From Sulfitobacter sp. S190 (GTDB taxonomy: Bacteria; Pseudomonadota; Alphaproteobacteria; Rhodobacterales; Rhodobacteraceae): DNA of 64,000 nt. Below are positions 11,573 through 29,587 of this stretch, in pieces. Position 1 is the first letter of the stretch, and the number at the start of each line of letters is the position of its first letter. The position numbers and the translations under genes were made by a program. The notes under the pieces are model-generated. The model was given only the letters and a program-made list of their open reading frames with translations. It ran no database searches and was not told the origin of the DNA. Where the stretch lies: assembly GCF_025141935.1 (NCBI RefSeq), contig NZ_CP081120.1, positions 806,001 through 870,000 of the forward strand. Reading direction: 5' to 3'.

Positions 11573-11588
11573 TTGCACACGTGTGCAA
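11573..11588. promoter_or_regulatory. perfect 16-bp palindrome; candidate LacI-family operator of the importer operon
   Basis: TTGCACACGTGTGCAA reads identically on both strands, with a central CpG as in most LacI-family operators. It lies 77 bases ahead of the first gene of the ABC importer operon, in the 274-base divergent region, just upstream of a weak promoter-like pair (TTGCCA at 11596, 16-base spacer, CATAGG at 11618). The LacI-family gene at 20201 is the obvious candidate protein. Binding is inferred, not shown. The rest of the intergenic region holds nothing I recognise. Confidence 0.55.
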
Positions 11589-11664
11589 ATTTTTGTTGCC
11601 AAAGCCGGAGCGCCGCGCATAGGCTTGGGTATTGTCGGTGTGTCCCGACGCTTGGGGAAGTGAT

Positions 11665-12714
11665 ATGGCCGAAATCCAGTTGCGCAATGTGAACAAGCGG
11701 TGGGGCGATTTTGTCGGCGTCGACAATTTCAATCTGACAATTGGCAACGAGGAATTTCTGGTGCTTCTGGGCCCGTCGGGCTGTGGCAAGACCACGACCA
11801 TGCGGATGATTGCAGGGCTGGAAGACGTCACCGAAGGCGAGATCATCATCGACGGCAAGGTGGTGAATGATCTGGACCCCAAGGACCGCGATGTGGCGAT
11901 GGTGTTCCAGTCCTACGGGCTTTATCCGCACATGAACGTCTATGACAACATCCGCTTTCCACTGAAGGTGCGCAAGATCGACAACGCCACCCATGATGCG
12001 CGGGTGCGCCGTGCCAGCGCGATGGTGGAGCTGGATGAATTTTTGCACCGCAAGCCCGCGGAGCTGTCCGGGGGGCAACGCCAGCGGGTCGCTCTGGCGC
12101 GGGCCATCGTGCGTGAACCCAACGTGTTCCTGATGGACGAGCCACTGTCGAACCTTGACGCGAAACTGCGTGTCAGCACGCGGGCCCAGATCAAGAACCT
12201 CAGCCATGAATTGAAAGTCACGACCGTTTACGTGACCCACGACCAGATCGAAGCCATGACCCTTGCCGACCGCGTTGTCGTGATGAAGCAGGGCAAGGTC
12301 CAGCAGGTCGGCACGCCGACGGAAATCTATGACAACCCGGCAAACACCTTTGTGGCGAGCTTTATCGGATCGCCCGCGATGAACCTGATGGACGGGCGGA
12401 TCACCAATGGCGTTTTCGAAGGCGCGAATGTGCGGATCGAGGGGCTGTCCGTGGCAGATGGCGACGTGACGCTCGGCTTTCGGGCCGAAGATGCGCATGT
12501 AACGCCCGCGGGTGGGCAGGGGCAGATCACCGCGCCGATCTACACCATCGAATTGCTGGGCGATGCGGTGATGCTGACGGTGCGCGCGGGCGGGCAGATG
12601 ACGTCCGTCAAGGCGCCCAAGGATTTCCGCGCCGACATCGGCGACGAGATCAGTTTTTCGGTGCCCTCCGGCATCTGCCACGTCTTTGACCACGCCACCG
12701 GCGAACGGGTCTGA
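11665..12714 (+). CDS. ABC importer ATPase, MalK/UgpC type
   Basis: Encodes 349 residues. Walker A 'GPSGCGKTTT', Q-loop 'VFQSYGLYPHMNVYDNI', signature 'LSGGQRQRVALARAI', Walker B 'VFLMDEPLSNLDAKL' and H-loop 'VTHDQIEAM' are all intact, followed by a C-terminal TOBE/OB domain from about residue 235. This is the CUT1 sugar-importer type of ATPase. The start at ATG 11665 (MAEIQLRNV) is preferred to an upstream ATG at 11632. It heads the operon with the binding protein and two permeases, so it powers import of the same, probably carbohydrate-like, ligand. Confidence 0.93.
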   Translation: MAEIQLRNVNKRWGDFVGVDNFNLTIGNEEFLVLLGPSGCGKTTTMRMIAGLEDVTEGEIIIDGKVVNDLDPKDRDVAMVFQSYGLYPHMNVYDNIRFPLKVRKIDNATHDARVRRASAMVELDEFLHRKPAELSGGQRQRVALARAIVREPNVFLMDEPLSNLDAKLRVSTRAQIKNLSHELKVTTVYVTHDQIEAMTLADRVVVMKQGKVQQVGTPTEIYDNPANTFVASFIGSPAMNLMDGRITNGVFEGANVRIEGLSVADGDVTLGFRAEDAHVTPAGGQGQITAPIYTIELLGDAVMLTVRAGGQMTSVKAPKDFRADIGDEISFSVPSGICHVFDHATGERV

Positions 12715-12806
12715 GCGCGGCAACGTATCCCCTTTTGCGAGGGGGCAAACCACGGGTGCAGCCTTGCAAGATGCACCCATCAATAAGCAAAACAGGGAGT
12801 TTGCAC

Positions 12807-14024
12807 ATGTTGAAGAACCTAGTCCTCGCGGGCGCTGTGTCCTTGATGGGATCCACCGCATTTGCCGCGTGTTCTTACGAAAACGAGACCGAGATCAAGA
12901 TGCTGTCGGCCGGCTTTGAAGCGTGGAAAGCGGTCACCGACGCGATGGCGGAATGCGGCAACCTGCAAGCCGAGCTGGACCAGGAGTTCCGCACCAAGCA
13001 GCCCGCCGCGTTCGAGGCGAACCCGTCGCTGTATCATATCGGCGGCGTGTCCAACGGCACCATCACGCCCCTGATGAACGCAGGCACCATCCGCCCGCTG
13101 GATGATCTGGTCGAGAAATACGGTCAGAACCTCAAGCCCAACCAGCTGATCCGTATCGACGGTCAGATTATGGCGGTGGCGATGATGGTCAACACCCAGC
13201 ACTTGATGTACCGCGAGGACGTGCTGTCGGATCTGGGCATTGACGTGCCAACCACGTGGGACGAAGTGCTTGCCGCCTCGGCCAAGATCGAAGAGGCCGG
13301 TGTCGTGGATCACGCGCTGGGTGCGACGCTGAAATCCGGTTGGAACCTCGCGCAGGACTTCAACAACATGTACGTCGGTTTCGGCGGTGATTTCTTCAAC
13401 GACGACAATACCACCGCGGTCAACGGCGACGCGGGCATGAAGGCGCTGGAGACGATCAAGGCGTCGATGGAATACATGGACCCCGAAGTGCTGGTCAGCG
13501 ATTCCACATATGTCCAGCAGCAGTTCCAGCAGGGCAAGATCGCCATGGCCAACCTGTGGGCATCGCGCGCCTCGGCCATGAACGATGAGGCCGAAAGCCA
13601 GGTGGTCGGCAAGGTCAAGATGGCCGCAGCACCGACCGCGATGGACGGCGGTGTGCCCGCGACGACCCTGTGGTGGGACGGTATCGTGATCGCCAAGAAC
13701 ATCTCGGACGAAGAGGCTGACGCCGCATTCCGTCTGGCGATGGAGGGCATGGACAGCGAAATGGTCACCGCCAACAATGACGCGGCGATCTGGCTGGTCG
13801 AAGGCTATGCGCCCACCGATCTGGCCGCGGGTGCCATTGCGACGGCCACTGCAAACCCGGCGCCACCTGCCTATCCGTCCACATCGCAAATGGGTCTGTT
13901 GCATACCGTTCTGGGCAACGAGATTCCGGCTTTCCTGACCGGTGAGCGTGACGCGGCTGCGACGCTGACGGCGATCGAGGAAGGCTACACCACTGCCGCG
14001 AAAGAAGCGGGCGTGCTGCAATAA
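12807..14024 (+). CDS. ABC importer periplasmic solute-binding protein (family 1)
   Basis: Encodes 405 residues with a signal peptide (MLKNLVLAGAVSLMGSTAFA) and a family 1 extracellular sugar-binding fold. Recognisable parts are 'PLMNAGTIRPLDDLVEKYG', 'LMYREDVLSDLGIDVPTTWDEVLAA' and the repeated 'FQQGKIAMANLWAS' motif of these proteins. It captures the ligand in the periplasm and delivers it to the two permeases that follow. CAGGGAG precedes the ATG; the frame is open 24 codons further upstream, but that would bury the signal peptide. A strong hairpin follows the gene, as is common for highly expressed binding proteins. Confidence 0.92.
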   Translation: MLKNLVLAGAVSLMGSTAFAACSYENETEIKMLSAGFEAWKAVTDAMAECGNLQAELDQEFRTKQPAAFEANPSLYHIGGVSNGTITPLMNAGTIRPLDDLVEKYGQNLKPNQLIRIDGQIMAVAMMVNTQHLMYREDVLSDLGIDVPTTWDEVLAASAKIEEAGVVDHALGATLKSGWNLAQDFNNMYVGFGGDFFNDDNTTAVNGDAGMKALETIKASMEYMDPEVLVSDSTYVQQQFQQGKIAMANLWASRASAMNDEAESQVVGKVKMAAAPTAMDGGVPATTLWWDGIVIAKNISDEEADAAFRLAMEGMDSEMVTANNDAAIWLVEGYAPTDLAAGAIATATANPAPPAYPSTSQMGLLHTVLGNEIPAFLTGERDAAATLTAIEEGYTTAAKEAGVLQ

Positions 14025-14033
14025 GATCACCGT

Positions 14034-14061: not shown

Positions 14062-14153
14062 GCCATTCGCGACCGGCGATTTTCGTCAGGGGCACCGGCC
14101 CCTTGCCAAGACCGCCACGCCCGTCGGGGGCGCGTCAAAAGGGGGGCTGACCC

Positions 14154-15179
14154 ATGAAATTCAAGACATTTGCCGCGTTTGTCGGCCCATCTGTTTTCAT
14201 GATGTTTCTGTTCATCGCGCTGCCGCTCGTGTCGGTCTTCAGCCAGTCGTTCCAGAACACCTATGATCTGCGCGAACAGGTCGAAGTCGAAACCTGCACA
14301 CCGGGTTTTCTGACACAGACCTGCACCACCGAGCTCAAGAACGTGCCGCAGCTGGACGCGGACGGCAAGCCGATCAAGATTACCGAGTGGACAGGGCTGC
14401 AAAGCTACCGCAACGTGCTGCAGATGGACAAGGTCTGGGCCGCGATCGGTGACGGGCGGCCCGGTGATATCCTGCAAATCGATTTCTGGAAGGCGCTGCG
14501 GTTCACGCTGGTGTTTACGCTGGTGACCTTGCCGCTGGTGATCGGGGTTGGTCTGCTGATTGCGCTGACCGTCAACAATGCCATGCGCAGCCTGCGCGGG
14601 CCGGTGATCTTTATCTCTTTGTTGCCGTTCATCATCACGCCGGTGATCGGATCGCTCTCGATCTACTGGCTGTTTGTGGGCGACGGGATCCTGACCGCCA
14701 TGATGGAACGATGGTCAGGCCAGAACATCTCGATGTTCGCGCAGGCGTGGACGATCGAGTTGCTGATGTATTTCTACCGCGTGTGGCACGTGGCGCCTTT
14801 TGCGTTCGTGATTTTCTACGCGGGTTTGCAGTCGGTCAACATGGACACGCTGGAATCCGCGGTGATTGACGGGGCGAACCGCTGGGAACGGCTGCGCCAT
14901 GTGATCATCCCGCATCTGATGCCGCTTATTGTATTTATTGCGCTGATCCACCTGATGGATTGCTACCGGGTCTTCGATGAAATCATCGGCTTCCGCTCAC
15001 AGGCGCATGTCATTTCGCTGCAATGGCTGACGGTCGATTTGCTGACGCCGGATGACGCGGGCAACCGTGCCATCAGCCGCGCATCGGCCAGCGCGATGCT
15101 GACGATGATCGGCATCGTGGTGTTGCTGGTGCCGCTGTTGCGCCGCACATGGCGCGATCACAAGGGAGGGTCACACTGA
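14154..15179 (+). CDS. ABC importer permease 1 (MalF/UgpA type)
   Basis: Encodes 341 residues with six predicted membrane helices. After the first helix comes a long periplasmic loop (about residues 40-100) that contains several Cys ('ETCTPGFLTQTCTTEL'), longer than in most CUT1 permeases. The cytoplasmic EAA loop, which contacts the ATPase, reads 'ESAVIDGANRWERLRHVIIP' near residue 240. It pairs with the second permease, whose ATG overlaps this stop (TGATG). Part of the importer operon starting at 11665. Confidence 0.9.
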   Translation: MKFKTFAAFVGPSVFMMFLFIALPLVSVFSQSFQNTYDLREQVEVETCTPGFLTQTCTTELKNVPQLDADGKPIKITEWTGLQSYRNVLQMDKVWAAIGDGRPGDILQIDFWKALRFTLVFTLVTLPLVIGVGLLIALTVNNAMRSLRGPVIFISLLPFIITPVIGSLSIYWLFVGDGILTAMMERWSGQNISMFAQAWTIELLMYFYRVWHVAPFAFVIFYAGLQSVNMDTLESAVIDGANRWERLRHVIIPHLMPLIVFIALIHLMDCYRVFDEIIGFRSQAHVISLQWLTVDLLTPDDAGNRAISRASASAMLTMIGIVVLLVPLLRRTWRDHKGGSH

Positions 15180-16339
15180 TGTCCGCCACACCCAAAGCCT
15201 TGCGCCAACCGTTCGGGCTGCGCTTTGCCTCAGGCACGTTCCTTGTGTTCTGGTGCATCATCGCCGCCTTCCCGATCTTCTGGATCGCGGTGATGAGTTT
15301 CAAATCCCCCGTCGACGCCTTTGCCGACAGCCCGTGGGACGTGCTCACCGGTCCGGTGACCCGGGCGGGGGGCAACGGCCTGTCGGTGATCGATGTGGTG
15401 CTGGGGGGGCTGGTGGTTGTTCTGGCGTTGCGCTGGGCGTTTACGCGGTTGCCGGGGCTGGTGAACGCACTGACCCCGAAGGGCCTGACCGCAGTGGGCT
15501 GGCTGATCGGCGCGGCCGCATACGCAATCGTGTTTCTGGTCGTGTTCTTCGGCATTCTGCCACCCGTCCTCGGCGTGCTGAACGGTCTGCTCGGACCCTT
15601 GGGAGAGCCTGTGATTGGCCTGACAACACAGCACTACATCTCCGTCTGGCAGGACAACGAATTCTATCGCAACTTCGGCAATTCCATGCTGGTGACGGCC
15701 GGCGTTGTGACAATCTCGCTCACGGTCGGCACGCTCGCAGGCTATGGTCTGGCGCGCTCGGGCAGCGATTTGGCATTCTGGCTCTTGATCATGGCGCTGA
15801 TTTTCCGGGCCTTGCCGCATTCGGTTCTGGTGGCCGGGTATCTGCCGTGGTTCATTAATTCCGCCGAAATCCTGCGCCCTATATTTGGTGAAATCTCGCC
15901 CACGCTCTACGGTCAGCCCTGGGCTGTGATCGCCGTACTGGTCTCGATCAACCAGCCGTTCACAATCTGGATGCTGCGGTCTTTCTTCCAGAATATCCCG
16001 GCAGAGCTTGATGAAGCGGCCCGCGTCGACGGCTGCAGCCATTTTCAGGCCTTCCGCCGCGTGATCATGCCGGTGATGTGGCCGGGCGTCATTACAACCG
16101 GTCTTTTCAGCTTTCTCTTGGGATACAACGACTTTCTGGTCACGTCCCTCCTGCTGGATGCGCAGAACCAGACGATGGTTCCCGCCATCGCCGGGTACTT
16201 CAACCGCGAAACAACAACCACCGATCAGGTCGAAGCGGTCGCCGCGGCGGTATCGATCACCGCGCCGCTGTTCCTGCTGGTGATGGTGTTCCAGCGCCAG
16301 ATCGTCAGCGGCCTTACTGCAGGTGCGGTGAAGGGATGA
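15179..16339 (+). CDS. ABC importer permease 2 (MalG/UgpE type)
   Basis: Encodes 386 residues, longer than the usual 270-300. An extra N-terminal region of about 100 residues carries two additional hydrophobic segments ('VVLGGLVVVLALRWAF', 'LIGAAAYAIVFLVVFFGILP') between helix 1 and the conserved core. The EAA loop 'LDEAARVDGCSHFQAFRRVI' is intact. GGGAGGG precedes ATG 15179, and the start overlaps the stop of permease 1. Together with the previous three genes it completes the importer. Confidence 0.9.
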   Translation: MSATPKALRQPFGLRFASGTFLVFWCIIAAFPIFWIAVMSFKSPVDAFADSPWDVLTGPVTRAGGNGLSVIDVVLGGLVVVLALRWAFTRLPGLVNALTPKGLTAVGWLIGAAAYAIVFLVVFFGILPPVLGVLNGLLGPLGEPVIGLTTQHYISVWQDNEFYRNFGNSMLVTAGVVTISLTVGTLAGYGLARSGSDLAFWLLIMALIFRALPHSVLVAGYLPWFINSAEILRPIFGEISPTLYGQPWAVIAVLVSINQPFTIWMLRSFFQNIPAELDEAARVDGCSHFQAFRRVIMPVMWPGVITTGLFSFLLGYNDFLVTSLLLDAQNQTMVPAIAGYFNRETTTTDQVEAVAAAVSITAPLFLLVMVFQRQIVSGLTAGAVKG

Positions 16340-16421: not shown

Positions 16422-16949
16422 ATGACAGGCCAAAGACCCGAACAGGCGGTGCTGACACGTGACACCGACCTGTCGAAAACCGATGCCACCCGCGGGGTGA
16501 TCGAACGGATGGTCGATGGCCTGAACGACCATACGATCGATGGCATCGGGGCGTTCTTTGATGACAGCTTCCGGTGGATGGGCAATCAGGGCTGCGGCAC
16601 CAAACAGGGGCTCAAGGAGTTTCAGGACAATTGGCAGCGTCCGTTCCAGGCGGCATTTTCCGACAAGGTCTGTATCGACGAGGCGCGGTTGTACATGGGC
16701 GAATGGGCCGCGGCTTTCGGGCGGCAGGAAGCGGTCCATTCGGGCCCCTTCATGGGCATCGCCCCCACCGGCAAACGGGTCGAGATCAGATATATGGATT
16801 TCTGGAAAGTCACCGATGGCAAGATCGAGGACAACTGGGTCATGGTCGATTTTCCCCATGTGATGGCACAGCTCGGTGTCGATGTATTTGGCGGTGAAGG
16901 CTGGGAAGCGTTCGACCGTGGCGAAAAAATTCCCCCGCGCCCGGCGTGA
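16422..16949 (+). CDS. SnoaL-like (NTF2-fold) protein
   Basis: A 175-residue protein with one SnoaL/NTF2-like domain: '[24 protein letters not shown]' forms the opening helices and '[21 protein letters not shown]' the sheet that closes the cavity. SnoaL relatives include polyketide cyclases and ketosteroid isomerases. Its C-terminal half is clearly paralogous to the C-terminal half of the protein at 18391; both share the pattern P-x-GK-x-x-E-x-R-x-x-DFW-x-V-x-DG-x-I. It lies between the importer genes and the HisD-like gene, all on the same strand. Function unknown; an isomerase, dehydratase or cyclase step in the pathway is plausible. Confidence 0.75.
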
Positions 16950-16983: not shown

Positions 16984-18312
16984 ATGACAATCGAATACCT
17001 CAAACGTGGCAAATCCGATGCGGAGCGGGGGGCCGATGATGCCAAGACCCGCGGTGTGGTCGAGGCAACGCTGCGCGATATCGAAGAGCGGGGCGATGTG
17101 GCCGTGCGGGCCTTGTCGGAGAAATTCGACGGCTACGCGCCGGCGTCCTTCCGGCTGAGCGTGGCCGAAATCGACGCGCTGATCGCCAAGGTCAGCCCCC
17201 GCGAAATGGCCGATATCAAGTTCGCGCAGGAAAATGTCCGCCGGTTCGCCCAGGCCCAGCGCGACAGCATGACGGACATCGAAATCGAGATGATGCCCGG
17301 CGTCATCCTGGGTCACAAGAACATCCCCGTGCAGTCGGTCGGCTGCTACGTGCCGGGCGGTAAGTTTCCGATGGTCGCGTCTGCCCATATGTCGGTGGCC
17401 ACGGCCAGTGTCGCGGGGGTGCCACGTATCATCGCCTGCACGCCACCTTTCAACGGCGAACCCAATCCGGCGGTGATTGCCGCGATGCATCTGGGGGGGG
17501 CGCATGAAATCTATGTGCTCGGGGGCATACAGGCGGTGGGTGCGATGGCGATCGGCACCGAAACCATCGATCCTGTGCACTTGCTGGTGGGACCGGGCAA
17601 CGCCTTTGTTGCCGAAGCAAAACGCCAGCTTTTCGGGCGCGTCGGCATCGACCTTTTTGCCGGTCCGACCGAAACCATGGTGATTGCGGACGAAACCGTG
17701 GACGCGGAATTATGCGCGACCGATCTGTTGGGGCAGGCCGAGCATGGCTACAACAGCCCGTGTGTGTTGCTGACCAACAGCCGAAAACTGGCCGAAGAAA
17801 CATTGGCCGAAATCGACCGGTTGCTGGAAATTCTGCCCACCGCGGACACCGCGCGTGTCAGCTGGGACGATTATGGCGAGGTGATCGTGTGCGACACCTA
17901 TGACGAGATGTTGCAGGTAGCGGACGACATTGCCTCCGAGCACGTTCAGGTGATGACCGACCGCGATGACTGGTTCCTCGAGCATATGACCTGTTACGGG
18001 GCCCTGTTTCTGGGTCCGCGGACCAATGTTGCCAACGGCGACAAGGTCATCGGCACCAACCACACGCTGCCGACCAAGAAGGCCGGGCGGTATACGGGTG
18101 GGCTTTGGGTAGGCAAATACCTCAAGACGCACAGTTACCAGAAGATCACCACCGACGCGGCCGCCGCTGAGATGGGGGCTTACGGATCGCGGCTTTGCAT
18201 GCTCGAGGGGTTCGTGGGCCACGCGGAGCAGTGCAACGTGCGCGTGCGCCGGTACGGCGGCGTCAATGTGCCCTACGGCGCCGGTGCCCCCGCCCGCAAC
18301 GCGGCGGAATAG
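16984..18312 (+). CDS. histidinol dehydrogenase-family enzyme, probably a catabolic alcohol dehydrogenase
   Basis: Encodes 442 residues. Every active-site position of HisD is present at matching spacing: zinc ligands Gln251, His254, Asp353 and His413, and catalytic Glu319, His320 and His360. The family oxidises a primary alcohol to the acid with two NAD. There is no his operon here; the gene sits between two SnoaL-like genes in a catabolic region, as do HisD paralogues such as HpsN (sulfopropanediol 3-dehydrogenase). A sulfonate substrate is not supported, because no suy, slc or hps neighbour is visible. ATG 16984 is chosen; an upstream ATG at 16876 lies within the preceding gene. Confidence 0.85.
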
Positions 18313-18314: not shown

Positions 18315-18396
18315 CGTTTTGCGGCCCCCATCGAGGGGGCAGCAAAACGCCGGAGGCGCGGCCTCCGGACCTTCGGAGTTTAAAGGCAAGATGAAG
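18315..18396 (+). repeat. interspersed extragenic repeat, copy 2 of 5; its tail contains the next start codon
   Basis: Two hairpins follow the stop of the HisD-like gene. The first pairs CGTTTTGC and GCCCCC (18315-18329) with GGGGGC and GCAAAACG (18335-18349), with one mismatch; the second pairs CCGGAGGC with GCCTCCGG (18350-18368) across a triloop. The tail CGGAGTTTAAAGGCAAG plus ATGAAG ends at 18396, and this ATG is the apparent start of the SnoaL-like gene at 18391. Confidence 0.7.
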
Positions 18397-19443
18397 ACCG
18401 ACCCACACACCCGAAACAAGGAGCTGCTGGCACCTTTGCGCGCCGCGATGGCGGATTTCGATGCGGATGCGGTACGTACTGCGCTGGCCGCCGTTGCAGG
18501 TCCGGATGCGGTTTTCAGGCTTGCGCATCCGTTCGAGACGGTCGCGGGGGTGGACGCCTATTTCGAGCGCACGTATCTGCCCCTGTTGCGGGCTGTCCCG
18601 GATCTGGAGCGCCGTGACTATATCGTGATGGCCGGTCCGGACGGCGACGGGGCCGATTGGGTCGGGTGCGGGGGGTATTACTGCGGCACATTTGCGCGGC
18701 CGTGGCTGGATATTCCGCCGACGTGTCATCTGGTGCACATGCGGTTTCACGAATTCTACCGCATCGAGGATGGCAAGGTCGTCGAGATGCAGGCGCTGTG
18801 GGATATTCCCGAGGTCATGATGCAGGCGGGTGCCTGGCCGATGGTCCCCAGTCTGGGCCGCGAGTGGCATGTGCCGGGACCTGCCACGCAGGACGGATTT
18901 GTGCCCGGTCCCCATGACCGCGATGCCGGGCAGGCAAGTTGTGACCACATTGTCGAGATGTTGGAGTACCTCAAGAAGCACCCCAGTCAGGGTGGTCCGG
19001 AGGTCATGGAAATGGACCGGTTCTGGCATCCCCGCATGACATGGTACGGCCCTGCGGGGATCGGCACGGGGCGCGGCACGGCGGGGTTTCGCAACTGGCA
19101 CCAGATCCCTTTTCTGAACGGCATGCCGGATCGCGGCCAGTATGTGGACGAGATCACATACCATTTTTTCGGCGACCGGAACTATGCCGCCGTGACCGGA
19201 TGGCCCGATATGTTCCAGTCGATCACACACGACGGATGGCTAGGCATTCCGCCCGTCGGCAAGAAGATCGAGATGCGCAGTCTGGATTTCTGGCGGGTAG
19301 AGGACGGGTTGATCCGCGAGAACTGGGTGCTGGTCGATCTGCTGCATATGTATCACCAGATCGGCGTTGATGTGCTGGGGCGGATGCGGGAGTTCAACAA
19401 GGCGCGGGCCGGGTTCGACCCTGTTACGGGGAGGGCGCAGTGA
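18391..19443 (+). CDS. tandem SnoaL-like (NTF2-fold) fusion protein
   Basis: A 350-residue protein with two SnoaL-like domains. Domain 1 (about 1-165) has 'AHPFETVAGVDAYFERTYLPLL' and 'MRFHEFYRIEDGKVVEMQALWD'. Domain 2 (about 190-335) has 'RGTAGFRNWHQIPFLNGMP' and 'IEMRSLDFWRVEDGLIRENW', the latter closely matching the single-domain protein at 16422. The start ATG 18391 falls in the tail of an interspersed repeat; GGAG (18375-18378) is 12 bases away and AAAGG closer. Its stop overlaps the SDR start (TGATG), so it is coupled to the SDR and LacI genes. Catalytic role unknown. Confidence 0.75.
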   Translation: MKTDPHTRNKELLAPLRAAMADFDADAVRTALAAVAGPDAVFRLAHPFETVAGVDAYFERTYLPLLRAVPDLERRDYIVMAGPDGDGADWVGCGGYYCGTFARPWLDIPPTCHLVHMRFHEFYRIEDGKVVEMQALWDIPEVMMQAGAWPMVPSLGREWHVPGPATQDGFVPGPHDRDAGQASCDHIVEMLEYLKKHPSQGGPEVMEMDRFWHPRMTWYGPAGIGTGRGTAGFRNWHQIPFLNGMPDRGQYVDEITYHFFGDRNYAAVTGWPDMFQSITHDGWLGIPPVGKKIEMRSLDFWRVEDGLIRENWVLVDLLHMYHQIGVDVLGRMREFNKARAGFDPVTGRAQ

Positions 19444-22275: not shown

Positions 22276-23259
22276 ATGACATTATCCATCCATGACCGCA
22301 TTGTCCGCTACGGCGAATTGCAACCGTGCAAGACCGCCTTTATCGACGCCCACACGCCCGGCAGCGACCAAAAGGAAAATTTCACCATCATCGGTGGCGG
22401 GGTATCGGAATCCGCCGACCAGCATGTCCACATCGGGCTGCCACACGGGTTCAATATCGGGGCCGCGGGTCAGCCGCCCAAATGCCGCAACAGCCTGCAC
22501 AGTCACCGCACCGCGGAAGTGTTTTTCGTGTTGTCAGGGCGCTGGCGGTTTTTCTGGGGGCGGTACGGCACCGCCGGCGAAGTCACGCTGGAAGAGGGCG
22601 ATATCATCAACATCCCGACTGGCATGTTTCGCGGGTTCGAAAACATCGGAACCGACTACGGGATGATCATGGCGGTCTTGGGCGGCGATGATGCGGGCGG
22701 CGGTGTGATCTGGGCGCCGCAGGTGATCGATGACGCCAAGGCGCACGGGCTGGTTCTGGGTGACAACGGCAAGCTCTATGACAGCAAGCAGGGCATTCAT
22801 CCGCCTGCGGGCGTGTCGCCGATGCCGCTTCTGAGCGAGGAGGAGCTGGCCGCCTATCCGGAGCCGTCGACCATGCAGGTCGTTGGCGGCTACGTGCGGC
22901 GGTATTGGGATATGATGGCGCTGTCGGACAAGACGCCCTGCAAGGTGATCGGCGAGCGCGGCATCATCCGCGACAAACCCGGTTTCGAGATTGACTTCAT
23001 CTCGCGCGGGAGTGCCCGGAGCGAGAAACACGCCCATGACGTGCCGTCGGTCCTGATGCCGATGCGGGGCCATTGGCGGGTGGAATGGGACGCGAATGCG
23101 GATCACGCCGCAGGCAGCGCCACGCTCGCGCCCGGCGATACCATGTCGGTGCCCGAAGGGTTGGCCCACTCCGCCGTGCCATCGATGACCGGCGAAGCGT
23201 CCTTGTATCACGTGGTCTCGACGGGCGATCCTGCCGGCCTGACCTGGACCGGCAGCTGA
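22276..23259 (+). CDS. bicupin-domain protein
   Basis: A 327-residue protein with two cupin barrels. Cupin 1 (about residues 60-150) has 'NSLHSHRTAEVFFVLSGRWRFFWG' and 'EEGDIINIPTGMFRGFEN', with His and Glu positions for a metal. Cupin 2 (about 230-325) has 'SEKHAHDVPSVLMPMRGHWRVEW' and 'APGDTMSVPEGLAHSAVP'. The architecture recalls gentisate-dioxygenase-like and other metal-dependent bicupins, but I see no specific signature for ring cleavage. It follows the SnoaL/SDR/LacI genes on the same strand and may be a dioxygenase or isomerase of the same pathway. Confidence 0.75.
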   Translation: MTLSIHDRIVRYGELQPCKTAFIDAHTPGSDQKENFTIIGGGVSESADQHVHIGLPHGFNIGAAGQPPKCRNSLHSHRTAEVFFVLSGRWRFFWGRYGTAGEVTLEEGDIINIPTGMFRGFENIGTDYGMIMAVLGGDDAGGGVIWAPQVIDDAKAHGLVLGDNGKLYDSKQGIHPPAGVSPMPLLSEEELAAYPEPSTMQVVGGYVRRYWDMMALSDKTPCKVIGERGIIRDKPGFEIDFISRGSARSEKHAHDVPSVLMPMRGHWRVEWDANADHAAGSATLAPGDTMSVPEGLAHSAVPSMTGEASLYHVVSTGDPAGLTWTGS

Positions 23260-23268: not shown

Positions 23269-24357
23269 TCAGGCCGGAGGCGTATCGAGAAAAGGGTAAT
23301 CCGTGTAGCCCTCACGCCCGCCGCCATAAAATGTGTCCTGATCGGGGGTGTTCATTTCGGCGTCGCGGCGGATGCGTTCCGGCAGATCGGGATTGGCGAT
23401 GAACGGGCGGCCGAATGTAACCCCATGGGCGTGCCCGCTGTCGATCACTTTGGCCGCCGTGGCGCCGTCATAGTCGCCATTGGCCATGTAAAAGCCGGTG
23501 AAGTGCGGACGCAGGGCCGCCACCAGATCCTTCTCACCCTCACTTCCGGGGAATTTCTCGACGATATGCAGATAGGCCAGCCCCCGCGCATCAAGCGCCT
23601 TGTAGATTTCGCCGAAGTGCTTTTCGGGGTCGCTGTCGGACATGTCGTGGACCTCGCCGATGGGCGACAGGCGTACGCCGACCCGGCCCGCGCCAAAGAC
23701 GTCGATCACCTCGTCAAGGATTTCGGCCAGCAGACGCATCCGGTTTTCAAGGCTTCCCCCATAGGCATCGTCGCGTTTGTTCACGCCGTCCTGAAGAAAC
23801 TGGTCGATGAGATAGCCGTTGGCGGCATGCACCTCGACCCCGTCAAAACCGGCTTCCTGTGCACATTTGGCGGCGTGGGCGAAATCCGCGATCGTTTGCT
23901 TGATCCCCTCCGCATCGAGTGCGGTCGGTTTGGACGTGTCCTCGAAACCGTTTTGGGTAAAGGTCTGCGCATCCGCGGCCACATCGGTCGAAGATACGGG
24001 GGCTGCGTTATCGGGCAGCAGCGATGTGTGGCTGATCCGGCCCACGTGCCACAGCTGGCAGTAGATCCGCCCGCCCGCGGCGTGCACCGCATCGGTGATC
24101 TTGCGCCAACCCGCCACGTGATCCTCGGTATAGATGCCGGGCGTGTCGATGTACCCTTTGCCCATCGCGGAGACCTGTGTGGCTTCGGTCAGGATCATGC
24201 CGGCGCTGGCGCGCTGCGCGTAGTAGGTCACCGCCATGTCGCTGGGCACGCCGTCGCCGCCCGCCCGGTTGCGCGTCAGTGGCGCCATCAGGACCCGGTT
24301 GGGCAGGGTGACATCCCCCATTCGGACGGGGGTGAACAGGCTGGCGTGGTGGGTCAT
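23269..24357 (-). CDS. old yellow enzyme-family NADH:flavin oxidoreductase
   Basis: Encodes 362 residues, an FMN TIM barrel of the NemA/OYE type that reduces activated C=C bonds, nitro groups or nitrate esters. 'NRVLMAPLTRNRA' opens the barrel, 'GRIYCQLWHVGRISH' and 'EVHAANGYLIDQFLQDGVNKR' carry FMN and substrate residues, and 'TFGRPFIANPDLPERI' is the C-terminal signature. ATG 24357 fits the family start; the open frame upstream is noise. It converges on the bicupin gene and is divergent from the MetE-like gene. Physiological substrate unknown. Confidence 0.92.
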   Translation of the reverse strand: MTHHASLFTPVRMGDVTLPNRVLMAPLTRNRAGGDGVPSDMAVTYYAQRASAGMILTEATQVSAMGKGYIDTPGIYTEDHVAGWRKITDAVHAAGGRIYCQLWHVGRISHTSLLPDNAAPVSSTDVAADAQTFTQNGFEDTSKPTALDAEGIKQTIADFAHAAKCAQEAGFDGVEVHAANGYLIDQFLQDGVNKRDDAYGGSLENRMRLLAEILDEVIDVFGAGRVGVRLSPIGEVHDMSDSDPEKHFGEIYKALDARGLAYLHIVEKFPGSEGEKDLVAALRPHFTGFYMANGDYDGATAAKVIDSGHAHGVTFGRPFIANPDLPERIRRDAEMNTPDQDTFYGGGREGYTDYPFLDTPPA

Positions 24358-24509: not shown

Positions 24510-25637
24510 ATGGTTTTGACAACGCACGCAGGGTCGCTTCCCCGCACGCAGGAGGTGGTTGATTTCATCTTTGCCCGTGAGCATGGCGAGGCGTATGATC
24601 GGGCCGCCTTTGACGCGGCCATGACGGCGGCGGTTTCGGCGACGGTCAAGCGTCAGGTCGAAACCGGTGTGGGCGTCGTGAGCGACGGCGAGACGTCCAA
24701 GATCAGCTATGCCACCTATGTCAAAGACCGCTACACCGGGTTTTCAGGGGACAGCCCGCGCAACGCGCCCGCGGATCTGAAGCAGTTCCCGACCTTTCTC
24801 AAACGTCTGGCCGAGGGCGGCGGCACGCCTCAATACGCGCGCCCGATGTGCACGGGTGATGTGGTGTCCAAAGGGCAGGGTGAGCTGGGCAAGGACATCG
24901 CCAACCTCAAGGCGGCGATGGCCGAGCATGGTGCGCCCCGCGGGTTCATGAACGCGGCCTCTCCCGGTGTCATTTCGCTGTTCCTGCAGAACGATCATTA
25001 CCCCACACGCGATGCTTACCTTGCCGCGCTGGCGGACGCGATGAAGGAAGAATACGAAACGATTGTCGCCGCCGGGCTGGATCTGCAACTCGATTGCCCC
25101 GATCTGGCGTTGTCGCGGCACATGTTGTTCAACGATCTGTCGGACGAGGCATTTCTGAAGATCGCGGGCGCGCATGTCGAAGCGTTGAACCACGCATTGC
25201 AGAATGTTCCCGAGGACCGCGTGCGCATCCATATCTGTTGGGGCAATTACGAGGGCCCGCACACATGCGACATCGGCATGGACAAGGTCTTCGACACGCT
25301 GATGTCGGCCAAGGCGCGGTATGTGCTGTTCGAGACTTCCAATCCGCGTCACGCCCATGAATGGACCGTGTTCCGCGACAGGCGAGCCGACATTCCCGAC
25401 GGCAAGGTGCTGGTGCCCGGTGTCGTCGATACGACCTCGAACTTCGTTGAACATCCCGAAGTGGTGGCGCAGCGCATCGAACGCTTCACCGACATCGTGG
25501 GGCAAGACCGCGTGATTGCGGGCAGCGATTGCGGTTTCGGCACCTTCGCGGGTTTCGGCGCGGTCGACCCCGAAATCGCCTATGCCAAGCTGACGGCCCT
25601 GTCGGACGGTGCCAAACTGGCCGAGGGACGGGCATGA
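24510..25637 (+). CDS. MetE C-terminal-like (cobalamin-independent methionine synthase II family) protein
   Basis: Encodes 375 residues, a TIM barrel related to the C-terminal half of MetE and to zinc-dependent alkyl transferases. It opens 'TTHAGSLPRTQEVVDF'. The zinc ligands are visible as His241 and Cys243 ('RIHICWGNYEG') and Cys341 ('GSDCGFGTF'). MetE itself is about twice as long, so this is not methionine synthase; members move alkyl groups between a substrate and a thiol, and most are uncharacterised. GAGAAGG precedes the ATG. It is coupled by ATGA to the RraA-like gene, and that to the FAH gene. Confidence 0.82.
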   Translation: MVLTTHAGSLPRTQEVVDFIFAREHGEAYDRAAFDAAMTAAVSATVKRQVETGVGVVSDGETSKISYATYVKDRYTGFSGDSPRNAPADLKQFPTFLKRLAEGGGTPQYARPMCTGDVVSKGQGELGKDIANLKAAMAEHGAPRGFMNAASPGVISLFLQNDHYPTRDAYLAALADAMKEEYETIVAAGLDLQLDCPDLALSRHMLFNDLSDEAFLKIAGAHVEALNHALQNVPEDRVRIHICWGNYEGPHTCDIGMDKVFDTLMSAKARYVLFETSNPRHAHEWTVFRDRRADIPDGKVLVPGVVDTTSNFVEHPEVVAQRIERFTDIVGQDRVIAGSDCGFGTFAGFGAVDPEIAYAKLTALSDGAKLAEGRA

Positions 25638-26329
25638 ACGACAGTCTGCTCGACCTGCTGCGCCGCGTCGATACGCCCACCGTTTGCAACGCCATCGAGG
25701 TGGCACAGGGCAAGCGCGGCTTCAACCGTTTCACACGCGGAACGATGCAGGCCTCTGCGGCGCAAGGGCCCGCGATGGTGGGCTACGCACGCACGGCGCG
25801 TATTCGTGCAGTTGCGCCCCCGCAGGAAGCACCGGAAGATGTGCGCGCCCGCCGCATGGGCTATTACCGGCATATGTCCGAAGGTCCCCGCCCCGGTATC
25901 GCCGTGGTGCAGGACATGGATGTGCCCAATGCCATCGGTGCCTATTGGGGTGAAATCAACACCAACGTGCACAAGGCGTTTGGCCTGTCGGGGGCGCTTA
26001 CCGACGGGGTGATGCGCGATCTGGGCGATCTGCCCGACGGCTTTCCGGTGGTGGCCGGATCTGTCGGCCCCAGCCACGGTTTCGTCCATGTGGTGGACTA
26101 CGGCACACCCGTCGATATCTTTGGCATGGCGGTCGCCGATGGCGATCTGGTGCACGCGGACCGCCACGGCGCGCTGGTCATCCCGACGGACGTGATCGCC
26201 GTGCTCGAGGACGCGATCGGTCAGCTTTTCGCCGCCGAACGCATCGTTCTGGATGCGGTGCGCGACAGGCAGATCAGTTTTGCCGATTTCGAAGAGATCT
26301 GGTCCGCCTTTGAAAGGAGCCGCACATGA
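25634..26329 (+). CDS. RraA/HMG-aldolase-like protein
   Basis: A 231-residue protein of the RraA-like fold. 'AFGLSGALTDGVMRDLGDLP' has the family's Asp-Gly…Arg-Asp motif, which binds the divalent metal and oxaloacetate-like substrates in 4-hydroxy-4-methyl-2-oxoglutarate aldolases, followed by 'VDYGTPVDIFGMAVADGDLVHAD'. The aldolase/decarboxylase reading is favoured over RNase E inhibition because it is coupled (ATGA at both ends) to catabolic genes. Start ATG 25634 overlaps the MetE-like stop; upstream in-frame sequence lies within that gene. Confidence 0.85.
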   Translation: MNDSLLDLLRRVDTPTVCNAIEVAQGKRGFNRFTRGTMQASAAQGPAMVGYARTARIRAVAPPQEAPEDVRARRMGYYRHMSEGPRPGIAVVQDMDVPNAIGAYWGEINTNVHKAFGLSGALTDGVMRDLGDLPDGFPVVAGSVGPSHGFVHVVDYGTPVDIFGMAVADGDLVHADRHGALVIPTDVIAVLEDAIGQLFAAERIVLDAVRDRQISFADFEEIWSAFERSRT

Positions 26330-27165
26330 AACTGGCCCGTATCGGCAATGCAGGGAGCGAACGGCCCGCAGTCGTCGCCCCCGATGGATCGTTCCGAGAT
26401 CTCAGCGATCACGTCGATGACATCACCGGCGCCACACTGGATTCCGAAACGCTTGGCAGGCTTGCCGCGCTTGATCCGATGGCATTGCCCGAAATCACCG
26501 GCAGGATTGGCGCTTGCGTCGGCGGCATCGGTAAATTCCTGTGCATCGGGCTGAACTACTCCGACCACGCCGCCGAGGCGGGCATGGCCATCCCCGAGCA
26601 CCCGATCCTGTTTCTGAAGGCCAATTCCGCGATTTGCGGACCGAACGACGATCTGATCCAGCCCCGCGGGTCGCAGGCACTCGATTGGGAGGTCGAGTTG
26701 GGCGTCGTGATTGGAAAGACGGCGAAATATGTGGATCGGACCACGGCACTGGAGCACGTGGCGGGCTACTGCGTGATCAATGACGTGAGCGAGCGGGACT
26801 TCCAGACGAAACTGACCGGGCAGTGGACCAAGGGCAAAAGCTGCGACACCTTCGGCCCCGTAGGCCCCTGGCTGGTGAGCGCGGATGCGGTGGGTGATCC
26901 GCAGGCGCTCGACCTGCGCTGCGATGTCAATGGCACCACACGGCAGACCGGATCGACCGCCACGATGATTTTCGGCGTGGCCGACATCATCGCGCACCTG
27001 AGCCAGCTGATGACATTGCACCCCGGTGACGTGATTTCCACTGGCACGCCACCCGGCGTCGGCATGGGTATGAAGCCACCGCTGTATCTGGCCCCCGGCG
27101 ATATAGTCGAATGCAGCATCGACGGACTGGGCACCCAGAAACAGGGGGTTGTCGCGGACGTCTAG
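26326..27165 (+). CDS. fumarylacetoacetate hydrolase (FAH)-family protein
   Basis: Encodes 279 residues. 'CIGLNYSDHAAEAGMAIPEHPILF', 'DWEVELGVVIGKTAKYV' and 'CVINDVSERDFQ' provide the metal-binding Glu, Glu and Asp of the FAH fold, and 'VISTGTPPGVGMGMKPP' is the C-terminal signature. Family members cleave C-C bonds in beta-diketo acids; a subgroup with this length hydrolyses 2,4-diketo-3-deoxy sugar acids in non-phosphorylative sugar pathways. With an SDR and an enolase-superfamily gene nearby, that role is the leading inference. Coupled by ATGA to the RraA-like gene. Confidence 0.9.
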   Translation: MKLARIGNAGSERPAVVAPDGSFRDLSDHVDDITGATLDSETLGRLAALDPMALPEITGRIGACVGGIGKFLCIGLNYSDHAAEAGMAIPEHPILFLKANSAICGPNDDLIQPRGSQALDWEVELGVVIGKTAKYVDRTTALEHVAGYCVINDVSERDFQTKLTGQWTKGKSCDTFGPVGPWLVSADAVGDPQALDLRCDVNGTTRQTGSTATMIFGVADIIAHLSQLMTLHPGDVISTGTPPGVGMGMKPPLYLAPGDIVECSIDGLGTQKQGVVADV

Positions 27166-27168
27166 GCG

Positions 27169-28401
27169 TCAGGTTTTCGGGGCAGGCGCGCCGCCCTCGA
27201 ATGCGTTGCCGTTGACATAGTCACAGGGCGCCTCCTGCATCTCCAGATGCAAACCTGCACCGGGATAGGGATGCGCGCGCGCCAGCTCCTCGTCCACCTC
27301 GATCCCGAGACCGGGGGCCTGTGGCGCGTGGATGAAGCCGTCCTCGACGCGGATGGTATTGCGGATCAGGTTGGCATGGAAAGGCGTCTCGATCGTCTCG
27401 GCCATCAACAGGTTCGGGATCGACACCGCCAGATGCACATTCGCGGCCCATTCCACGGGGCCGGCATAAAGATGCGGTGCCATCTGCGCGTTGTAGACCT
27501 CTGCCATGGCGGCGATCTTCTTGGCCTCCCAGATCCCGCCGACACGCCCCAGCGCAGGCTGCAGAATGGTGGCCGCGCCCGCGCGCAGGACAGGCGCGAA
27601 TTCGGCCTTGGTGCAAAGCCGCTCGCCGGTGGCGACGGGTATTCGGACCGCGGCGGCAACCTTACCCATTTCAGCAACATTATCCGGCGGGATCGGTTCC
27701 TCGAACCACAGCGGGCTATAGGGTTCCAATGCCTGTCCCAAACGGATGGCCCCTGCCGTCGTGAACTGGCCGTGGGTGCCGAACAACAGATCGGCGCGGT
27801 CGCCAACAGCGGCGCGAATGGCGCGGCAAAACGCGACAGATTGGGTGATATCCGACATCGCGGGCATATGGCCTCCGCGCAGGGTATAGGGCCCTGCGGG
27901 ATCAAATTTCACTGCCGTATAGCCACGCGCAACGGCATCCAGTGCCGCCTCGGCCGCCATATCGGGCGATGTCCAGAACGCGGTCGGGTCATGATGGGGC
28001 AGGGGGTAGAGATAGGTATAGGCCCGCACACGCGCATTCATGCAACCGCCCAGAAGCGCGTAGACAGGCCGCTCGCGCATCTTGCCCAATATGTCCCAGC
28101 AGGCAATTTCGAGACCCGAGAACGCGCCGATCACCGTCAAATCGGGGCGCTGCGTAAAGCCGCTGGAATAGGCCCGGCGAAACATCAGCTCGATATCTTC
28201 GGGATTTTGGCCGCGCATGTGGCGCTCGAATACATCTTCGATGACCGCGCGCATCGCCTCCGGCCCCACGGACGCGGCATAACATTCGCCCCATCCCACA
28301 ATGCCCGTTTCGGTGGTCAGCTTGACCAGTATCCAGTACCGCCCGCCCCATCCCGGCGCGGGTGGGGCCGTCACGATAACGTCCAGATCCACAAGTTTCA
28401 T
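27169..28401 (-). CDS. enolase-superfamily (mandelate racemase type) sugar-acid dehydratase-like protein
   Basis: Encodes 410 residues: a capping domain followed by a TIM barrel. Aligned to D-galactonate dehydratase (DgoD), His210 matches His185, Glu234 matches Glu209, Glu260 matches Glu235 and His310 matches His285, all with identical spacing. The first metal ligand, Asp183 in DgoD, is Gly208 here ('LLFGTHGQF'). It should dehydrate a sugar acid to a 2-keto-3-deoxy acid if the metal site is still functional. It converges on the FAH gene with a three-base gap. The substrate and even the activity are open. Confidence 0.85.
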   Translation of the reverse strand: MKLVDLDVIVTAPPAPGWGGRYWILVKLTTETGIVGWGECYAASVGPEAMRAVIEDVFERHMRGQNPEDIELMFRRAYSSGFTQRPDLTVIGAFSGLEIACWDILGKMRERPVYALLGGCMNARVRAYTYLYPLPHHDPTAFWTSPDMAAEAALDAVARGYTAVKFDPAGPYTLRGGHMPAMSDITQSVAFCRAIRAAVGDRADLLFGTHGQFTTAGAIRLGQALEPYSPLWFEEPIPPDNVAEMGKVAAAVRIPVATGERLCTKAEFAPVLRAGAATILQPALGRVGGIWEAKKIAAMAEVYNAQMAPHLYAGPVEWAANVHLAVSIPNLLMAETIETPFHANLIRNTIRVEDGFIHAPQAPGLGIEVDEELARAHPYPGAGLHLEMQEAPCDYVNGNAFEGGAPAPKT

Positions 28402-28441
28402 ATCTTTCCCCCCCGCAGGTGCCGGCTCACAACAGATCGGC

Positions 28442-28497
28442 CTTCATCTTGCCCTTAAACTCAAATCCGCGCCGCGCACCGCGCGCAGGTCCCTGCG
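28442..28497 (-). repeat. interspersed extragenic repeat, copy 3 of 5 (minus orientation)
   Basis: Read on the minus strand: a CGCAGG/CCTGCG hairpin (28484-28497), a GC-rich stretch, then the tail TTGAGTTTAAGGGCAAG plus ATGAAG ending at 28442. It starts two bases past the ADH stop and lies upstream of the enolase-superfamily gene. Here the ATGAAG is not used as that gene's start, which is ATG at 28401. Confidence 0.6.
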
Positions 28498-28498
28498 T

Positions 28499-29587
28499 TT
28501 AGCGATCAAAGACAATCACATTCCGCCGTGCCGCACCGGTTTTCGTGTCAGCAATCGCCTCGTTTATCTCGGCAAGCGACCAGCGCCCCGAGATAAGCGC
28601 GTCCAGTTCCAGCCGACCTTGGGTATAAAGATCGACCATCCACGGAATATCGCGTTGGATGACGACATCCCCCATTTTGGAGCCGACCATTCCCTGGCCC
28701 ACGGCGGCCAGCATGACAGGCTCGTAAGTGGACGTGGCACCCGAATGGGGCATGCCAACCATCACGACCCTGCCCCCATAGGCGAGATACTGCGGGGCGG
28801 TGTCATAGGCAGGGATCGCGCCGACGGTGACGATCACGGCATCCGCACCCCGGCCCAACGCGCGCTTTGCCGCGCGCCATGGTTTGGCGTCGGTCGCCAG
28901 CACCCCGTCGGTTGCGCCAAAGGATTTCGCCACCTCCAGCTTCTCCTCGCTCATATCGACGGCAACGATGCGCCGGGCACCGGCAATCCGCGCGCCCTGT
29001 ATCGCGTTGAGCCCGACACCGCCCGCACCGATGACGACCACGTCCTGTCCGGCCCGCAGCGCGGCGGCGTTCACAACTGCGCCGACGCCGGTGATCACCC
29101 CACAGGAAATCAGGCTGGCCGATGCCTTGGGAATTTCTGCCGGAATTTTGACGACCTGTTTCTGGTCAACCACAACCGCCTCGGCAAAGGCCCCGCAGGC
29201 CATGGCCTGATGCAGTTTGCCACCGTCGGCGGTCTTGATGGGCCCCTGATCGCCGTCATAGGGCGTCTCGCACAAGGTCGGTTTACCGCTGGCGCAGGAC
29301 GGACACGTGCTGCACGACCGGATGAGCGTGACGACCACGCTGTCGCCTTCGGCCAGTCCTTGCACGCCGTCACCCAGAGCGCTCACACGACCGGCGGCTT
29401 CGTGGCCGTACACCGCAGGCAATGAGCCGCCCCAGGCGCCTTCGGCAAAGGATATATCGGAATGGCAGATCGCAACCGCGTCCAGCGTCACTTCGATCTC
29501 GCCCGTTCCGGGCGCGCGCAACTGGATGTCTTCGATCTGGAGTGGGCTGCCGAAGGATCGGCAGACGGCGGCTTTGATGGTACGCAA
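28499..29587 (-). CDS. zinc-dependent alcohol dehydrogenase (MDR family)
   Basis: Encodes 362 residues, a class III-like medium-chain dehydrogenase. The catalytic zinc ligands are Cys in 'VAICHSDIS' and His-Glu in 'VYGHEAAG'. The structural zinc loop 'CSTCPSCASGKPTLC' keeps all four Cys. 'VIGAGGVGLNAIQGA' binds NAD, with 'AVDMSEEKLEVAK' giving the Asp for NAD. It oxidises an alcohol to an aldehyde or ketone. It follows the pca operon's MFS gene by 66 bases on the same strand and precedes the enolase-superfamily gene, so it could serve either pathway. Confidence 0.93.
   Translation of the reverse strand: MRTIKAAVCRSFGSPLQIEDIQLRAPGTGEIEVTLDAVAICHSDISFAEGAWGGSLPAVYGHEAAGRVSALGDGVQGLAEGDSVVVTLIRSCSTCPSCASGKPTLCETPYDGDQGPIKTADGGKLHQAMACGAFAEAVVVDQKQVVKIPAEIPKASASLISCGVITGVGAVVNAAALRAGQDVVVIGAGGVGLNAIQGARIAGARRIVAVDMSEEKLEVAKSFGATDGVLATDAKPWRAAKRALGRGADAVIVTVGAIPAYDTAPQYLAYGGRVVMVGMPHSGATSTYEPVMLAAVGQGMVGSKMGDVVIQRDIPWMVDLYTQGRLELDALISGRWSLAEINEAIADTKTGAARRNVIVFDR

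Follow-up and report, generated by a model that had tools for sequence, protein, structure and literature searches.

A catabolic-looking region in the 4.0-Mb genome of Sulfitobacter sp. S190 raises two questions: which of its genes belong together, and on what compound do they act? The region lies in a 64-kb window (the whole stretch of DNA analyzed, G000:C1:806001-870000, to whose numbering coordinates without a genome label refer). The core consists of a CUT1-type importer (ATPase, extracellular solute-binding protein or SBP, and two permeases), three SnoaL proteins (SnoaL1, SnoaL2, and SnoaL3), a HisD-like dehydrogenase, a short-chain dehydrogenase/reductase (SDR), a LacI-family regulator, a bicupin, a MetE-like protein, and an RraA-like protein. 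Judged by the conservation of genes and operator, it almost certainly belongs to one LacI-controlled regulon with four SnoaL proteins, the fourth being encoded elsewhere behind the same operator. The set very probably serves a dedicated catabolic pathway.

Conservation of the core genes

Scanning genome contigs with SnoaL2 gave 285 relatives, and all counts out of 80 refer to the best 80 loci, which were chosen by similarity to this one cluster member. A gene was scored as present at ≥45% identity and >50% coverage. The loci span at most approximately 10 kb per side, so that the counts for the enolase-like, alcohol dehydrogenase (ADH), second MFS (MFS2), and glutaryl-CoA dehydrogenase-like genes are lower bounds; the pca genes of the window were outside this reach. 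Each core gene was present in 68 to 80 loci, except for SBP and permease 1 (59 loci each), which in most of the remaining loci were diverged (about 39-45% identity) yet present. Failure of the genes to stay together had been named beforehand as a ground for refutation, and the core withstood this check: the located core genes kept the window order on one strand in 76 of the 80 loci. All 13 core genes were located in 53 loci, and at least 12 in 69. OYE, FAH, and first MFS (MFS1) genes were found in none of the 80 loci at these thresholds, and OYE was rejected as a cluster member on that count. MFS2 was present in at least 3 loci and the glutaryl-CoA dehydrogenase-like gene in at least 19.

By these measures, the core genes form one conserved system, the mapped edge of which differs from that drawn in the initial annotation, a description made from the sequence alone. 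That annotation had located its genes correctly: the importer, the three SnoaL genes with five domains, and the HisD, SDR, LacI, and cupin genes on the plus strand were confirmed in place and family, and the OYE, coupled MetE-like/RraA-like/FAH, enolase-superfamily, and ADH genes were present as described. Its unit holds from the importer through the bicupin and for the MetE-like and RraA-like genes; OYE, FAH, the enolase-like gene (20 loci), and ADH (7 loci) fall outside it.

The gap between the MetE-like and RraA-like genes, measurable in 65 loci, was 600-900 bases in 42 (mostly 689, the size of an alpha/beta-hydrolase gene), <50 bases in 21, and something else in 2. Extra neighbors recurred at ≥50% identity: a PcaD-like alpha/beta hydrolase (47 of 80 loci), a fourth SnoaL protein (SnoaL4; 37), a methyltransferase (32), an amidohydrolase (24), and a PNPOx-like protein (24). 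The amidohydrolase was fuconolactonase-like, under the cut-off of the NCBIfam model. The window has no match at ≥50% identity to any of these five; SnoaL4 and the window SnoaL2 are 35% identical.

Co-occurrence was assessed in 198 genomes of the same family, an independent sample that took almost one genome per genus and was not chosen for the cluster. SnoaL2 relatives (E ≤ 0.001, a set that takes in more distant paralogs) were found in 80 genomes and bicupin relatives in 85, 79 of these at E < 1e-100. SnoaL2 and the strong bicupin occurred together in 75 genomes, SnoaL2 alone in 5, the bicupin alone in 4, and neither in 114 (Fisher P ~5e-43, kinship ignored). With all 85 bicupin genomes included, the corresponding counts were 77, 3, 8, and 110. 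Among 61 genomes with listed strong places for both, the two genes were on the same contig in 51 and within 10 kb in 49; they were on different contigs in 10 and far apart in 2, and some assemblies are fragmented. Restricting SnoaL2 to its top-scoring copies gave 48 of 61 on the same contig and 46 within 10 kb. A large proportion of the marine Roseobacter-type bacteria keeps the cluster together under a common operator. When the bicupin served as a protein query, 7999 candidates were scored, at least 6774 of them matching at E ≤ 0.001 (orthology is not implied for all), and many marine Rhodobacterales were among the matches listed. Given the frequencies of SnoaL2 and bicupin relatives and this number of matches, the substrate should be common, and its identification would close a gap in what is known of marine carbon and nitrogen cycling.

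The operator and its probable regulon

The 300 bases upstream of six gene types were scanned for CG-centered palindromes with at least 8 of 9 pairs. Such palindromes preceded the ATPase gene in 65 of 76 loci, with one common consensus, and were found 0-2 times each upstream of the SBP (n = 77), SnoaL1 (80), bicupin (77), MetE-like (73), and enolase-like (17) genes. Of 76 loci, 73 had the form TTGCANNCGNNTGCAA (ACCGGT center excluded) no more than 250 bases ahead of the ATPase gene; for each of the 12 other core genes, 0-1 of the 68-80 loci had it there. The interval of the initial annotation begins at 11573, within the operator of the window (11572-11589). A single site in 64 kb is weak proof because 0.30 sites are expected by chance at up to three mismatches; the evidence lies in the conservation of the operator. 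The locus combines a LacI gene with a conserved palindrome with a central CG, the features of a LacI-regulated operon.

A whole-genome search at ≤2 mismatches found one further operator site (reversed-pattern control, 0). This second site begins 60 bases upstream of the gene for a SnoaL protein of 332 aa, which shares 53-56% identity with the SnoaL4 types from other loci. The orphan SnoaL4 gene (G000:C1:1745469-1746527; L128:1501-2559) is far from the cluster. In genomes with a split cluster, the operator is found in front of an isolated HisD-like gene (78% identity), 82-99 bases before a detached pair of MetE-like (79%) and hydrolase (57%) genes in that order, or between divergent SnoaL and GMC genes. 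A degenerate operator search had matches in at least 66 of the 198 family genomes, a number that mixes in another palindrome, TTTGCAACCGGTTGCAAA. Thirteen stretches from other genomes were hand-picked from its matches; 12 held an operator-like site, and a regulon-type gene stood beside 10 of these. The operator offers a means of tracking the regulon.

Both exact degenerate-search matches in the Sulfitobacter genome were of the TTTGCAACCGGTTGCAAA type (G000:C1:2892956 and 2897231; L172 and L173), 4.3 kb apart. This palindrome is present in many other family genomes, and the pair possibly marks a second LacI-type regulon.

The HisD-family enzyme

The closest solved relatives of the HisD-like enzyme in a PDB sequence search were HpsN proteins (E 1e-115), a relationship that, like the operator and the fourth SnoaL gene, goes beyond the initial annotation. 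HpsN is separated from HisD by His126, which recognizes the sulfonate, according to the available text of PMC11382572. At this place the window enzyme has Met130. In a 33-sequence alignment, Met, Leu, or Ile stood there in every one of the 31 cluster enzymes, among them the enzymes from Pantoea, Deinococcus, Priestia, Roseomonas, Roseibium, and Alloyangia. The motif YVP[GA]GKFPM was found in 74 of 77 orthologs, the other three being unmatched by the expression. The window enzyme and all the other aligned sequences retained the Zn and catalytic residues of HpsN (Gln248, His251, Glu318, His319, Asp352, and His411), one sequence being truncated ahead of His411. The same genome encodes two further family members separately: an HpsN-type enzyme with the sulfonate His (YSH; G000:C5:31967-33238, L125), which suggests a 2,3-dihydroxypropane-1-sulfonate (DHPS) pathway in this genome, and a HisD-type enzyme (ASY; G000:C1:3012165) with Tyr at the Lys353 place.

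By its residues, the window enzyme would represent a third class in the HisD fold, neither HisD nor HpsN. In a 25-row tree, the window type (Alphaproteobacteria, Gammaproteobacteria, and Deinococcus) comprised 17 rows with support 94/87, unstarred and with long branches flagged; the HpsN type lay apart from it, and further cluster-linked groups were present. A second HisD-family group (L110, L112, L118, and L119) has Ile or Leu at the His126 place, and its clusters also contain amidase genes. Automatic annotation labels enzymes of the proposed third class histidinol dehydrogenase. The HisD family name fails to separate the window enzyme because TIGR00069 (NCBIfam) matches this protein too (426 bits; cut-off, 244).

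The remaining core proteins

The five SnoaL domains (Pfam) are distributed over SnoaL1 (one), SnoaL2 (two), and SnoaL3 (two). PDB relatives of SnoaL1 include SnoaL and IdmH, and the predicted model of SnoaL2 has two NTF2-like domains. The fold is that of the SnoaL, IdmH, and AclR polyketide cyclases and the Lsd19 and MonB epoxide hydrolases, with a two-domain chain as in Lsd19; unlike those enzymes, the SnoaL proteins of the window are linked to an importer, and no polyketide synthase is found among the core genes.

In the bicupin, the N-terminal site H75, H77, and E81 alone was invariant in a 22-sequence alignment. The protein had no match to PDB sequences at E ≤ 0.001; in a structure search, oxalate decarboxylases, quercetinases, salicylate dioxygenase, and seed storage proteins were all among the closest to its model. 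The MetE-like and RraA-like proteins had weak matches only in the PDB sequence search. H241, C243, E275, and C341 of the MetE-like protein were invariant in 17 of 17 sequences and presumably match the zinc residues of E. coli MetE. The protein thus resembles MetE and the short cobalamin-independent methionine synthases in its Zn-thiol residues and Meth_synt_2 domain (Pfam), and differs in being distant (49 bits) and in having catabolic-looking partners. T[DN]GxxRD was present in 68 of 68 RraA-like orthologs; Arg-Asp is the active-site motif of the 4-carboxy-4-hydroxy-2-oxoadipate (CHA)/4-hydroxy-4-methyl-2-oxoglutarate (HMG) aldolase LigK. None of the 25 NCBIfam matches listed for the SDR reached its cut-off.

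The importer has the composition of the CUT1 type (Pfam): a MalK-like ATPase with TOBE/OB domains, SBP_bac_1, and two BPD_transp_1 permeases. Consecutive genes of the MetE-like/RraA-like/FAH trio (24510-27165) overlap by 4 bases. The features of the locus are listed below.

Table 1. Operator, core genes, and adjoining genes of the cluster in window coordinates. Families were assigned by Pfam/NCBIfam, and all named open reading frames are free of internal stops.
Feature	Position	Strand	Basis and occurrence
Putative LacI-type operator ATTGCACACGTGTGCAAA, consensus TTTGCANNCGNNTGCAAA	11572..11589		93 bases 5' of ATPase start
CUT1-type ABC ATPase, OB_MalK and TOBE domains	11665..12714	+	Pfam; 77/80 loci
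SBP, SBP_bac_1	12807..14024	+	Pfam; 59/80 loci at ≥45% identity
ABC permease 1, BPD_transp_1	14154..15179	+	Pfam; 59/80 loci at ≥45%
ABC permease 2, BPD_transp_1	15179..16339	+	Pfam; 77/80 loci
SnoaL1, single SnoaL domain	16422..16949	+	Pfam; 77/80 loci
HisD-family dehydrogenase, proposed third class (Met130 at HpsN His126 place)	16984..18312	+	77/80 loci
SnoaL2, two SnoaL domains; query for fetching loci	18391..19443	+	Pfam; predicted fold
SDR oxidoreductase	19440..20201	+	Pfam; 77/80 loci
LacI-family regulator, proposed operator binder	20201..21217	+	Pfam; 78/80 loci; operator conservation
SnoaL3, two SnoaL domains	21214..22182	+	Pfam; 78/80 loci
Bicupin	22276..23259	+	Pfam, one cupin stretch; predicted model spans bicupin chains; 77/80 loci
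OYE, N-ethylmaleimide reductase-like; neighbor outside core	23269..24357	-	0/80 loci
MetE-like Zn-thiol methyltransferase family protein	24510..25637	+	Pfam; 73/80 loci
RraA-like aldolase family protein, Arg-Asp motif present	25634..26329	+	Pfam; 68/80 loci
FAH-family hydrolase; neighbor outside core	26326..27165	+	Pfam/NCBIfam; 0/80 loci
Enolase-superfamily, sugar-acid dehydratase-like; neighbor in subset	27169..28401	-	20/80 loci (lower bound)
Zn-dependent ADH; neighbor in subset	28499..29587	-	7/80 loci (lower bound)

Related clusters in other organisms

Annotated plasmids of Octadecabacter and Paracoccus carry related sets. A Vibrio pelagius plasmid has four SnoaL genes, an importer, and sarcosine oxidase, and a plasmid of the haloarchaeon Halobellus has five SnoaL genes, a MetE-like gene, an importer, and an aminomethyltransferase family gene. 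In Pantoea, two Deinococcus, Priestia, Sinorhizobium, Alloyangia, Roseibium, and Roseomonas, SnoaL genes occur with varying HisD, SDR, cupin, alpha/beta hydrolase, RraA/HpaI-type aldolase, and amidase or C-N hydrolase genes; the stretch read from Sinorhizobium showed no HisD gene, and those from Roseibium and Roseomonas showed only part of the set. Genes for C-N chemistry in the related clusters are amidase or C-N hydrolase, sarcosine oxidase, and SolA-type oxidase genes, and in distant clusters an 'aldolase/citrate lyase' gene takes the place of the RraA-like gene. A MetE-like relative in Sphingobium adjoins GcvT-type, MTHFR, and purU genes. On a Croceicoccus marinus plasmid (L122), another occurs with a small NTF2 protein amid genes for LigK, LigA/extradiol dioxygenase, aminomethyltransferase, MTHFR, purU, and folD.

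No description of the core gene set was found in the open-access literature (PMC; titles and abstract openings among the matches listed), in agreement with the initial annotation, which knew of no described pathway with its exact gene set. Every fold among the proteins is known; as far as open-access searches go, their combination, the class of HisD-family enzyme, and the operator have no earlier description.

Proposed substrate and pathway

The explanation that we put first for the whole, tentatively and at well below even confidence, is a conserved LacI regulon that imports and degrades a mycosporine or other 4-deoxygadusol-type cyclohexenone. Mycosporines are sunscreen-like ring compounds made by algae and fungi, and 4-deoxygadusol has a C5 bearing OH and CH2OH, two CH2 groups, and a 2-methoxy-1,3-diketone. 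Taken alone, the identification of the substrate as a mycosporine or related 4-deoxygadusol-type ring is somewhat doubtful. In the proposed pathway, the importer would take up such a compound and SnoaL-fold enzymes would release its amino-acid part. The HisD-like enzyme could then oxidize the ring CH2OH to COOH with NAD; histidinol, DHPS, and 4-deoxygadusol have in common the skeleton HOCH2-C(X)-CH2-C/S=Y, so that Zn chelation would be possible alike. The MetE-like Zn-thiol enzyme would remove the O-methyl group, and the bicupin would cleave the resulting ene-diol-one ring with O2 between C2 and C3 to yield CHA, the substrate of RraA-fold CHA aldolases. The RraA-like aldolase would split CHA into pyruvate and oxaloacetate, whereby all seven core carbons are balanced. 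Aromatization of 4-deoxygadusol to O-methylgallate by SnoaL dehydratases was set behind direct ring cleavage, which has fewer steps, and is kept as a variant. It is possible, though we would not expect it, that the pathway mineralizes mycosporines and mycosporine-like amino acids, in which case the SnoaL-fold proteins would form a novel mycosporine hydrolase class and variants would act in soil, leaf, and haloarchaeal microbes.

The enzyme set hints at this substrate. In its favor are the invariant Zn-thiol residues of the MetE-like proteins, the MetE-like relatives beside MTHFR and purU genes in Croceicoccus and Sphingobium, the C-N genes of related clusters, the Arg-Asp motif of the RraA-like orthologs, and the resemblance of the bicupin model to quercetin and salicylate dioxygenases, among others. 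Several observations weigh against this explanation. One line of reactions uses the HisD-like, MetE-like, bicupin, and RraA-like proteins and leaves two unplaced: neither the SDR (77/80 loci) nor the PcaD-like hydrolase (47/80 at ≥50%, outside the window) has a clear step on 4-deoxygadusol. Asp121, which we take to be the catalytic residue of SnoaL in that numbering, aligns to Val in SnoaL1. The bicupin has an invariant Arg119 where cupins usually have the third metal His, and dioxygenases rank no higher among its best structural matches than oxalate decarboxylases and seed storage proteins do. On the LigK model (NCBIfam), the RraA-like protein scores 24.6 bits against a cut-off of 304.5. Fungal mycosporines are methoxylated, and the amidase-bearing clusters of Pantoea, Deinococcus, Priestia, and Sinorhizobium have no MetE-like gene in the stretches read. 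The neighbors of MetE-like relatives in Dietzia, Halobaculum, and Pantoea sp. At-9b differ and give no hint of demethylation. An Ensifer plasmid cluster with OtnK and aldolase genes and a SnoaL3 ortholog, in which no HisD or MetE-like gene was seen in the stretch read, points to tetronates. As regards the operator, two operator-like sites (L163, G109:C110; L164, G038:C11) have no core gene nearby, although an enolase-like gene 75% identical to that of the window lies approximately 1.8 kb from the site in L163, and a further CG-centered palindrome precedes the window bicupin and is unconserved (2/77).

Alternative explanations

The substrate may instead be a different ring compound that carries nitrogen or methoxy groups, such as a C7 aminocyclitol, a methoxylated aromatic, or a related natural product; we regard this possibility with the same doubt as the mycosporine assignment. 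The SnoaL/cyclase folds, the bicupin, the MetE-like relative near LigK/LigA, the amidases and amine oxidases of related clusters, and the GMC oxidoreductase beside an operator all fit it. Nothing specific speaks against it, but no carbon balance as simple as that of deoxygadusol was found. The lower pathway of gallate/protocatechuate 4,5-cleavage, with its LigK-type CHA aldolase, is comparable in its RraA-fold aldolase with the Arg-Asp motif and in the MetE-like relative of such a Croceicoccus cluster; it differs in that the window RraA-like protein falls well short of the LigK cut-off and the core has a cupin and no extradiol dioxygenase.

A sugar-acid, tetronate, or branched-polyol pathway is unlikely. 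Here the SDR and HisD-like enzymes would oxidize a polyol or aldonate, the SnoaL proteins would act as dehydratases or isomerases, and the RraA/HpaI aldolase would split a 2-keto acid. LacI regulators and CUT1 importers are typical of sugars, and both families are present in the core. OtnK beside the SnoaL3 ortholog in Ensifer, the enolase-like gene in 20 of 80 loci, and the fuconolactonase-like amidohydrolase (below cut-off) in 24 point the same way, and threonate-like acids also have a HOCH2-C(OH)-C-C=O skeleton. Such a pathway, however, leaves the MetE-like, bicupin, amidase, and amine oxidase genes unexplained, and FAH was found in none of the 80 loci and the enolase-like gene in 20. The initial annotation had read the region as degrading a polyol, sugar acid, or substituted compound; the catabolic-looking, importer-linked set supports a degradative role. 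It had also pointed to the occurrence of SDR plus FAH plus an enolase-type dehydratase in non-phosphorylative sugar-acid pathways. That argument is unsupported because FAH and the dehydratase lie outside the core, and a sugar-acid module with both as core was rejected on conservation. The neighboring FAH, enolase-like, and ADH proteins do resemble members of L-rhamnose/fucose-type non-phosphorylative pathways, all below curated cut-offs, but they are not conserved with the core.

Degradation of DHPS or another sulfonate with an HpsN variant is very improbable. HpsN is the closest solved relative, the window enzyme retains its Zn and catalytic residues, and the hps operons of Ruegeria pomeroyi and Cupriavidus likewise have a HisD-fold NAD enzyme with oxidoreductase partners, that of R. 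pomeroyi pairing HpsN with a LacI regulator (available text of PMC11382572, PMC11131964, and PMC4334477). Unlike these operons, as far as that text describes them, the window cluster lacks the sulfonate-binding His, has a CUT1 instead of a TRAP or MFS importer, and additionally encodes SnoaL, bicupin, MetE-like, and RraA-like proteins; its core genes include neither a sulfolactate lyase nor a TRAP importer, and an HpsN-type enzyme with the His is encoded elsewhere in the genome. The DHPS pathway was rejected on residues: every one of the 31 aligned cluster enzymes has Met, Leu, or Ile in place of His126.

That the genes are chance neighbors, or a region held together by shared ancestry alone, is extremely improbable: similarity to a single member guided the choice of the 80 loci and the 198-genome count ignores kinship, but the genes co-occur in that independent sample, the operator is conserved and also stands beside detached members, and related sets exist in other phyla and in a haloarchaeon.

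Genes adjoining the cluster

FAH relatives (E ≤ 1e-60) occurred in 55 of 61 family genomes, compared with 0 of 80 clusters. G055, a genome of the same genus, has its FAH relative at 4.06 Mb and the cluster at 0.86 Mb. The best NCBIfam match of the window FAH was 2,4-didehydro-3-deoxy-L-rhamnonate hydrolase (384 bits; cut-off, 500), and on this match a sugar-acid module may adjoin the cluster. Downstream, past the ADH and MFS genes, pcaB/pcaC/pcaD-like genes occupy 30874-33384, and a glutaryl-CoA dehydrogenase-like gene lies upstream of the cluster at 8722-9945, all named from their translations.

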